From contig QMMC01000005.1 in assembly GCA_003647065.1 (NCBI GenBank), positions 1-44,180 of the forward strand: 44,180 bases of DNA, read 5' to 3'. Position numbers and translations under genes: made by a program. A model generated the notes under the pieces. The model worked only from the letters and a program-made list of their open reading frames with translations. It ran no database searches and was not told the DNA's origin. The DNA is from Deltaproteobacteria bacterium (lineage in GTDB: Bacteria > Myxococcota_A > Polyangia > Polyangiales > B10-G4). The stretch's first letter is position 1. Each line of letters starts with the position of its first letter. Positions 13,077-25,056 of the stretch are shown piece by piece.

Positions 13077-13420
13077 GGGGACGTGGGCCAAGTGCGGCGG
13101 AGGGTAGCACTCGAAACTCCTGTGGTCCGTGCCGTAGCTGGCAGAGAAAGACATGCCCGGCACCTCGGACTCCGGACCGTCCGACTCGGCAACCTCCGAC
13201 ACGGGGGCCTCCGATCGGTCCTCGTCGGGCTCGCCGCTGCGCTGGTCGCGATCTTCTGACTCTGGCCGATGACGGTTGACAGGATTTGCACGGACAGCAG
13301 CAACCCTCGCCGTCTTCGCACCGGCACCTTGGCGCGCTACGAGGCGGTCCGTAAGGGGTCTACACCTCGGCGGTTGTCGGTGTTTTGACGCACGGCTGCC
13401 GTCTCGGTATCACCGAGGCC

Positions 13421-13936
13421 ATGGTCCGCGTCCCCGCGCACTCTTTCCTGGCGTCCCTCATCGTCGTGACCCCCCTGGCCCTGAGCGCCTGCGCGGACGC
13501 TCCCCGGGAGATGCGCTTCGATACCCCGGAGGCGACCCTCGAGACGCTCCTCGGTGCCTTCGGTGTCGAGGACCAGACCCAGGAGGAGGTCCAGCGGCAC
13601 CTGCGTAGCCGCGGGCGCTTCGACCTCCAGGACGAAGAGACCTACCACGCGTGTTTCGTCGACTTCGATGGCCCCGCGAGCGAGGCCCTCGCCGGATACG
13701 TCTTCGGCACCGTTGCGGCGGGCAAGGACCAGCTGCGCATCGTCCACGTCGGCGACAAAGTGCACGTCTATCCCGACCCCGAGCGCCGCGAGCGCTACGT
13801 CGTCATGTTCAACACCGACACCGGCTACCGCATCTCGCTCCGCGAGAGCGTTCCCGCCGAGGTTCGCCGGGCGCTGCTCCAGGAGCACGAACGGATCGAC
13901 AATCGCAACCGACGTGCGGGCGCGGTCCTCGAATAG
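13421..13936 (+). CDS. Small putative lipoprotein
   Basis: MVRVPAHSFLASLIVVTPLALSACADAP lipobox; 171-aa ORF; a degraded paralogue lies at 14964-15225. Confidence 0.75.
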   Translation: MVRVPAHSFLASLIVVTPLALSACADAPREMRFDTPEATLETLLGAFGVEDQTQEEVQRHLRSRGRFDLQDEETYHACFVDFDGPASEALAGYVFGTVAAGKDQLRIVHVGDKVHVYPDPERRERYVVMFNTDTGYRISLRESVPAEVRRALLQEHERIDNRNRRAGAVLE

Positions 13937-14866: not shown

Positions 14867-15022
14867 GCTGGCCGGATACGGCGGGCCAGGGTTGGCGTCA
14901 ACTCGATGGGAGGCGGACCTCTGCCAGCATGCGTTGTCCGCGAGCACGCCGTGATAGATGACGAGCGGCATCTCCGCACCCGCGGGCGCTTCGACCTCCA
15001 AGACGAAGAGACTTACCACGCG

Positions 15023-15092
15023 TGGACTTGGGGACGCGTGGTTGCTTAATTGCCTTATGGACTTGGGGACGCGTGGTTGCTTAATTGCCTTA
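15023..15092 (+). repeat. Exact 35-bp tandem direct repeat (2 copies)
   Basis: Read directly; 35/35 identity, no spacer. Confidence 0.97.
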
Positions 15093-15164
15093 CGCGGCCA
15101 ACGCCTTCCCAGGCAACTGGTGGCCGGGTTCTGGCGTAAGGCAATTAAGCAACCACGCGTCCCC
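15065..15164. repeat. 30-bp perfect inverted repeat, 40-bp loop
   Basis: 15065-15094 versus reverse complement of 15135-15164; inner GGCCA...TGGCC pairing in the loop. Confidence 0.95.
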
Positions 15165-15227
15165 CATCAACTTCCTCGAACGGATCGACACCCGCAACCG
15201 ACGTGCGGGCGCCGTCCTCGATTGATC

Positions 15228-23214: not shown

Positions 23215-25056
23215 TCAAGGGGCCGGGGCTCCGGCTTCGCTCGGGCTGTCGGCCGCTGACTCGGCTGGCGTCGCCGGTTCGGGTGCCGCAGCCGGTGCTT
23301 CGACCGAGGGCTCACAGGCTTCCGTGGACGGTGTGCCCGCGGTCTCTGGGTCCACGACATGGAACTCGATGCGCGCGTTTTGGGCGCGGGCCTGTCGGCT
23401 CGTGCCTTCGGCGACGGGGCGCGTCTCACCGCAGCCCCAGGCCTCGAAGCGCGAGGCCTCGAGGCCGTGCTCGGTCATCCAGGTGACCACGGCGAGGGCG
23501 CGCTCCCGGGAGAGGGTCAGATTGCGCGCGTCGGGGCCGCGGTCGTCGGTGTGGGCGTCGACGCGCACGCGCCGGAGCTGAGGATTCGCGGCGAGGGTCG
23601 CCCGGACCTCGTCGAGGACCTCTTCGGTCCCCTCGGCGAAGGTCGCGCGCCGGGGCGTGAACGAGATGCCGCTGAGCAGGCGCAGCTGGCCCTCTTCGAG
23701 GCGGTGAGACGCGGGGCAGCCGCCGTCCGCGGCGGCACCGACGGCGAGGGGGCAAGCGTCCTCCTCGTCGGGGACGCCGTCCCCGTCGTTGTCGAGGTCG
23801 GGGCAGCCGTCGGCGTCCGCGAATCCGTCGAGGTCTTCGGCGTCGTTCGGGCACTGGTCGTCGGCGTCGAGGATCTCGTCCCCGTCGTTGTCGGGGTCCG
23901 GGCAGCCGTCTTCGTCCTCGAACTCGTCGAGGTCCTCGGCGTCGTTCGGGCACTGGTCGTCGGCGTCCAGGATCTGGTCCCCGTCGTTGTCGGGGTCCGG
24001 GCAGCCGTCTTCATCCTCGAACTCGTCGAAGTCCTCGGCTCCTTCGGGGCAATCGTCTTCATCGTCGGGGTATCCGTCGCCGTCGCCATCGACCGGCCCG
24101 AGGTCTTCTTCGGGCCGGGGCTCGGGCTCGGGCTCGGGTTGAATGAACCCGATGCTCACCAAGACCCGCGCTGCGGGTGTTCCCCAGCCGGCGGACAGGC
24201 CCGGCCCCGCGGCGACGCCCGCCGTGAGCCCGCCCTTGGCGAGGTACTTGAGCCCCAGGAGCATCTCGACGTTGGTCGTCGAGTCCCGGGTTAAGTAGTC
24301 GAGGGCGTGATTCCCGGAGGCCTCGACGATGGCTTCGAGCTCGTCGTCGCCGTCTAAGATCTCGTAGCCGACGCCTGCTCGCCAGAGCAGCTCGTTGCGG
24401 ACCAGAGCGCCAGCGTTGCTCGTATACTCCTCGTGCAGGCGGAGGCCGACGTTGGCGGTCACCCGGAGGCGCGGCGGGCGGAACTCGATGAGCAGTTTCG
24501 GCACGAAGTTCACGCTCTGGTCCCCCGAGTAATTTTGCTCGGGCAGCACCGCCTGGGCGAGGGGGAAGGTCACGTCGGCGGCGAGGGCGACGCCGAAGGG
24601 GTCGAGGGGATCGCCGATGAGCCGCACCCGGGCGCCGAGGGTTGGGTCGCTGAGGGTCGATTCGTCGGCGCTGGGAACGCCCGGCACGTCCTGTCCCGTC
24701 ATCAAGAGGTGGATGGGCAGGGCTCCGTAGAGCAGCAGGCGGTCGAAGAGGCTGTAGGAGAGCGTCGTATGGAGGGTCAGCTGGTGTTCGACGACCGGCG
24801 TCGTCTCGGCCGCACCGGCGGCGGTGAAGAGCAGCGGCGACGCGGCGTAATCGATGACCGCCTGGGCGGCCCAGAAGTCGTGGCCCCGGGCGACGGGGCT
24901 CTCGGCCTGGAACATGTCCTCGGGGGCGTTGGCGGCCGAGAAGCGGTTGAGTCGCACGCCCTGGGCGGCCGCCGTGGAGGCGAGGCCCAAGGCAAGAAGG
25001 CCGGCGATTACGCCGATGGAGAGGCTCGAGCGGATGAGCAGAGAACGTGTAAACAC
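23215..25056 (-). CDS. OmpA-family outer membrane protein with thrombospondin type-3 repeats
   Basis: Signal peptide, beta-barrel-like N-terminus, repeated CPDPDNDGD.ILDADDQCPNDAEDLDEFEDEDG, OmpA-C motif RVRVDAHTDDRGPDARNLTLSRERALAVVTWM. Confidence 0.9.
   Translation of the reverse strand: MFTRSLLIRSSLSIGVIAGLLALGLASTAAAQGVRLNRFSAANAPEDMFQAESPVARGHDFWAAQAVIDYAASPLLFTAAGAAETTPVVEHQLTLHTTLSYSLFDRLLLYGALPIHLLMTGQDVPGVPSADESTLSDPTLGARVRLIGDPLDPFGVALAADVTFPLAQAVLPEQNYSGDQSVNFVPKLLIEFRPPRLRVTANVGLRLHEEYTSNAGALVRNELLWRAGVGYEILDGDDELEAIVEASGNHALDYLTRDSTTNVEMLLGLKYLAKGGLTAGVAAGPGLSAGWGTPAARVLVSIGFIQPEPEPEPRPEEDLGPVDGDGDGYPDDEDDCPEGAEDFDEFEDEDGCPDPDNDGDQILDADDQCPNDAEDLDEFEDEDGCPDPDNDGDEILDADDQCPNDAEDLDGFADADGCPDLDNDGDGVPDEEDACPLAVGAAADGGCPASHRLEEGQLRLLSGISFTPRRATFAEGTEEVLDEVRATLAANPQLRRVRVDAHTDDRGPDARNLTLSRERALAVVTWMTEHGLEASRFEAWGCGETRPVAEGTSRQARAQNARIEFHVVDPETAGTPSTEACEPSVEAPAAAPEPATPAESAADSPSEAGAPAP

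Follow-up and report, generated by a model that had tools for sequence, protein, structure and literature searches.

The hairpin at positions 15065–15164 of the window, by which we mean the whole 44,180-nucleotide stretch analysed here, is very probably a non-autonomous MITE of the terminal inverted repeat (TIR) type, REPIN-like in layout and belonging to a private family, for which a Y1/HUH transposase of the TIRYT kind on contig C30 of the same genome would be the autonomous partner. The C30 gene carries the same arms as its terminal repeats, with 2 differences in 28 positions, and the sequence comparisons below make the element most likely a small parasite copied by the C30 enzyme. The window family is a new family of the known TIRYT/TIRtron kind, a class that was described in 2013 (PMC3733652) and linked to transposase subclass 2.1 in 2018 (PMC6006769). 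The features discussed here and their coordinates are collected in Table 1.

Table 1. Features of the window element, its insertion site, and the two TIR-associated transposases of the source genome
Feature	Location	Strand	Remarks
MITE proper	window 15065–15164	.	100 bp: two perfect 31-bp inverted arms and a 38-nt spacer; no arm mismatch
Left arm, GGGGACGCGTGGTTGCTTAATTGCCTTACGC	window 15065–15095	+	2 differences in 28 from the repeats that end the C30 transposase element
Spacer (loop)	window 15096–15133	.	GC-rich; poorly conserved in an alignment of 16 family members
Right arm	window 15134–15164	-	left arm copied in inverted orientation
Extra tandem unit	window 15023–15057	+	TGGACTT plus 28-bp arm; identical to 15058–15092
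Intact-looking paralogue of the relic	window 13385–13936	+	small lipoprotein-like ORF
Left flank, gene relic	window 14963–15024	+	residues 70–89 of the 13385–13936 gene; DNA ~90% identical to 13593–13653
Right flank, relic of 3′ end	window 15177–15221	+	residues 169–183 of the 13385–13936 gene; 93% identical to 13888–13932
Transposase ORF	C30:14145–15059		337-codon open frame at L033 1550–2563
C30 arms, 31 bp each	L033 1530, 1567 and 2617, 2671	+ (1530, 1567); - (2617, 2671)	two per side
Second TIR-associated Y1 transposase	C514:1266–2442 (L032)		flanking repeat GGGGACGGTATAAACTTTCTCACTTT

The element opens with an exact tandem duplication of the 35-bp unit TGGACTTGGGGACGCGTGGTTGCTTAATTGCCTTA, whose copies at 15023–15057 and 15058–15092 are 100% identical, as an earlier note on this DNA had reported. 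That note had also described a perfect 30-bp stem with arms 40 bp apart; the stem is indeed perfect, although its arms (15065–15095 and 15134–15164) measure 31 nt each, 100% complementary, and are separated by 38 nt. The right arm can also pair with the upstream tandem copy, giving a second perfect pairing of 28 nt. Within the 44-kb window the 24-mer core of the arm has three matches against zero expected, and the 15065–15164 hairpin is the strongest inverted repeat in the entire window. Folded as single-stranded DNA, the 142-nt stretch reaches −50.4 kcal/mol, whereas its shuffles average −23.4 kcal/mol (z −9.8), a gain in stability of 27 kcal/mol. Aligning 16 family members reveals no consensus base pairs within the loop. 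The G+C content of the element is 58%, compared with 68% for the window, and the element encodes no gene, in agreement with the earlier reading: open frames merely run across it mechanically. A similarity search of plasmid and phage DNA gave no match, nor did a search of Rfam.

The source genome is a draft of 7.08 Mb in 594 contigs, 86% complete, and a search of it for the 28-bp arm, allowing up to three mismatches, gives 71 copies (72 with a slightly different pattern), while a control with the reversed pattern gives none; many of the copies are paired, so that the dispersed inverted pairs foreseen in the earlier note are present. The 72 arms resolve into 16 inverted pairs of 97–102 bp, which are the MITEs, and 40 unpaired arms, some of them in tandem 35–38 bp apart. 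General MITE properties are found in the family, its members being short and non-coding and having terminal inverted repeats in common with an autonomous element, but the 40 unpaired arms do not follow from a simple two-ended MITE. Many unpaired arms are preceded by the motif GGAYTT and lie next to another repeat, GACTGACGCAAGTGGACGCGATTGCCCC, of which the source genome has 14 copies. This second repeat usually lies directly upstream of single GGGGACGCG arms, as at C542:5144–5322 (L036). Searching 37 further genomes of the order gave no copy of the arm family, and an exact-pattern search of genome_contigs found no arm. Two loci of the family have features of their own. At C579:70–166 (L069), near a contig end, the outer flanks of the MITE are perfect inverted copies of each other, possibly through an assembly fold-back; at C304:6791–7910 (L037), two MITEs lie 1 kb apart with their spacers in opposite orientations, and one of them has the 15-bp direct repeat TACTTTCGCGCCATG on each side, ~7 bp away.

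By rough gene calls the elements are mostly intergenic, many of them only a few bases from a stop codon, and frequently placed between convergent genes but rarely between divergent ones; PMC3733652 reports a similar gene-end and intergenic placement for REPs. Such a distribution, together with a strong stem and the compensatory changes in it, is also what might be seen if the element were a host-selected RNA hairpin at gene ends, acting as a bidirectional terminator or mRNA stabiliser and no longer mobile. We consider this very unlikely, as it leaves unexplained why dozens of loci share nearly the same sequence, why a transposase is flanked by the arms and why single arms occur in tandem, and no T-run follows the stem. 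A role in RNA can nevertheless hold as a side effect alongside transposition.

TIR-associated Y1 transposases form a large and little studied branch of the RAYTs. An intact Y1/HUH transposase gene, present in one copy, lies on contig C30 with the arms doubled at both ends, and with it the earlier expectation of a Y1 gene flanked by the same motif is borne out. The C30 arms (GAGG...GTCTTA) have two differences from those in the window, and C30 therefore need not be the direct parent. The Y1_Tnp profile match of the protein falls below the Pfam cut-off (E 0.02), and we based the assignment on homologues and on the predicted fold. Across 12 aligned homologues, H59, H61, Y122, N126 and P127 are invariant, and the combination of HUH with a Y---NP signature is assigned to class 2 in PMC6006769. 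The AlphaFold model of the protein (mean pLDDT 86.8) has as its top PDB match 4er8, a RAYT in complex with a REP hairpin (E 2e-5, probability 1.00), followed by the IS200, IS608 and ISDra2 transposases and then by the DnaA DNA-binding domain (3pvp), and the C-terminus matches a DnaA profile (E 1.9e-5). The C30 protein is accordingly modelled as a Y1-type transposase whose fold is that of a RAYT and whose C-terminal domain resembles that of DnaA. A more distant Y1 gene on contig C169 was discarded as a partner, having no framing inverted GGGGAC repeats and no arm in its flanks. On contig C144, a 770-bp segment between opposed arms contains no recognisable transposase frame.

The same rule of partnership is repeated by a second TIR-associated Y1 transposase, on contig C514, and this supports the pairing of C30 with the window arms. 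The two proteins are 44% identical over 183 amino acids, and the C514 protein matches Y1_Tnp (E 8e-4), REP_Tyr_transpos (E 2e-7) and Bac_DnaA_C (PF08299, E 1.6e-4), all below curated cut-offs. Its flanking repeat is dispersed in the source genome as 26 hairpin MITEs of 59–62 bp (loci L142–L167), and its TIRs begin with GGGGACG yet differ from those of C30. These 26 MITEs are near-perfect hairpins with short, hypervariable loops. We also considered 31 homologous genes, the best matches to C30 from the source genome and others of the class. In a count made without a shuffled control, [GA]GGGACG repeats match on both sides of 23 of the 31, most of them in other genomes, and in both of the other genomes tested the gene's own TIR is dispersed (23 arms in G018 and 15 in G139). 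Because the C514, G018 and G139 genes each have their own dispersed repeats, the comparison indicates that every transposase has a private repeat, with only the GGGGACG start in common.

None of the 42 MITEs of the two families (16 and 26) has a target-site duplication, direct matches between flanks being no more frequent than chance. HUH transposases of the IS200/IS605 and REP kinds are not known to make target duplications; the result therefore fits an HUH enzyme and argues against MITEs of the DDE type. If the element were instead the MITE of some TIR-bearing DDE transposon and had nothing to do with the C30 gene, this would account for its perfect terminal repeats and small size, but not for arms that flank a Y1 gene, for a second TIR family flanking a second Y1 gene in the same genome, or for the abundance of unpaired arms; we regard this reading as extremely unlikely. 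For mobilisation by the C30 enzyme, we infer that the transposase would recognise the GGGGACG arm, probably when it is folded in single-stranded form on the template of the lagging strand, and cut it with its tyrosine, after which the element would be moved or copied in trans without target duplication. A single-strand mechanism is described for REP-kind/HUH transposases in PMC6006769.

Judged by its features, the C30 transposase fits a TIRYT of RAYT group 1/TnpA subclass 2.1. As described for TnpA-REP subclass 2.1 (PMC6006769), which includes RAYT group 1 (Bertels et al. 2017), C30 combines HUH and Y---NP signatures with a long C-terminus carrying a DnaA-like or HTH domain, and TIRs are present while canonical REPs are absent nearby. 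PMC6006769 reports no REP-like sequences beside subclass 2.1 genes and leaves the link to TIRs to further analysis. The TIRtrons/TIRYTs (PMC3733652) likewise have long terminal inverted repeats, with GGGG as their first bases, on both sides of a Y1/HUH gene, and TIR copies dispersed singly, as dimers and in clusters. The start of the TIR here, GGGGACGC, fits seven of the eight positions of the GGGGWSAS motif, with G as the seventh base where the published base is A; the same source describes this motif as common to some TIRs only. The present account differs from that of the TIRtrons in the doubled, nested ends and the arm-by-arm identity measured here, for neither of which we found a published measurement in the literature covered, mostly outside subscription journals.

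A resemblance also exists to REPINs (Bertels and Rainey 2011, PMC3116915): these are extragenic, have a pair of short repeats in inverted orientation that fold into a long hairpin, and are believed to be moved in trans by a Y1 transposase present in one copy, as is proposed here. Unlike in REPINs, the arms here are not REP palindromes themselves and have no GTAG guide. Although the inverted-pair layout, extragenic position and Y1 partner are those of a classical GTAG REP/REPIN served by a canonical RAYT (subclass 2.2, 2.4 or 2.5), in which the arms would be self-folding palindromes with a GT[AG]G guide, the arms begin with GGGGAC, and the sole GTGG in the arm becomes GAGG or GTGA in other copies. 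Moreover, a single arm folds weakly alone, the changes between copies do not keep the fold, and the partner has the DnaA-like C-terminal domain of the TIR-associated branch. With neither a conserved GT[AG]G nor a conserved palindrome, the arm was rejected as a self-folding REP, and we judge the classical system very unlikely. The REP-like element mobilised by a Y1/RAYT enzyme, as the earlier note had it, is thus upheld in its dispersed family and Y1 partner and not as a classical GTAG REP/RAYT pair.

The tandem second copy had been taken for something unusual, a slippage product or an intermediate. It is not unusual: the ++- layout, with an extra tandem arm on one side, occurs in three pairs (the window, C10:24160–24296 and C250:2462–2599), and 16 of the 31 homologous transposase genes have a doubled repeat on one or both sides. 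In several of these genes the left outer repeat matches the right outer and the left inner matches the right inner, and the spacings of the doubled repeats are equal on left and right (61/61, 56/56, 84/84, 61/61, 60/61), while the spacers have diverged. The doubled ends look like an old two-site end, and as they are frequent around homologous transposase genes, we read the tandem arm of the window as an instance of this common layout, in which the extra arm would correspond to a doubled end as found around the autonomous gene. A one-off slippage product was rejected as a general account, since tandem arms elsewhere have different spacers. For the window copy, in which the 7-bp spacer is identical in both tandem units, a recent local 35-bp duplication is the probable origin.

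Both arms are identical in 14 of the 16 elements (30 nt) and in all 26 of the second family (27 nt), even though the arms differ between elements. Random arm pairing gives 1.6 and 7.1 identical pairs, with maxima of 7 and 15 in 5000 shuffles. When the arms are counted as a helix, 99.2% of cells are paired, with 31 double-sided changes, eight pairs changed on both sides and a covariation score of 0.180 against 0.071 after shuffling. Several transversions (T-A to A-T, C-G to G-C) are mirrored on both arms without intermediates, and private variants are mirrored within single elements on C437, C153 and C392. Inheritance from a few masters accounts for part of the arm identity. The mirrored private variants need two coordinated substitutions or one copying event, and copying of this kind is known to occur by template switching inside inverted repeats (PMC8794818, PMC7202029). 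Because the arms are identical within each MITE, mirrored transversions included, the pattern points to hairpin-templated correction or to selection for pairing, which are not separated here. With correction, one arm would template the other in the hairpin by template switching; with selection, well-paired copies alone would be mobilised.

Taken together, the nested ends and matching arms raise the possibility, which we offer tentatively, of a transposase class with two nested recognition repeats at each end and MITE arms that evolve in concert by arm-to-arm copying. If true, each variant would be fixed on both arms in one event, with copying through a hairpin intermediate or replication template switching, and each end would consist of an outer and an inner repeat, equally spaced left and right despite diverged spacers. 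The doubled ends suggest a testable idea of the enzyme's binding target. In the window family the enzyme partner, the doubled ends and the matching arms are unusually easy to see, and a single genome offers two TIR-associated transposases, each with private hairpin MITEs whose arms can be compared pair by pair. This makes it a natural data set for two questions, the mobilisation of TIRs in trans and the persistence of long perfect hairpins.

Relic sequence from the 3′ half of the 13385–13936 gene surrounds the window element, with ~235 nt absent between its two pieces. This part of the duplicated lipoprotein-like gene was lost either when the element inserted or by a later deletion. A microhomology event at the site is possible, given that ACGCGTGG is common to the left flank and the arm. 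Viewed across the locus (13385–13936 and 14963–15221), a lipoprotein-like gene has been duplicated and one copy is down to two fragments around the element. Elsewhere in the window, at 23739–24085, a repeat with a 99-bp period is present in three diverged tandem copies.
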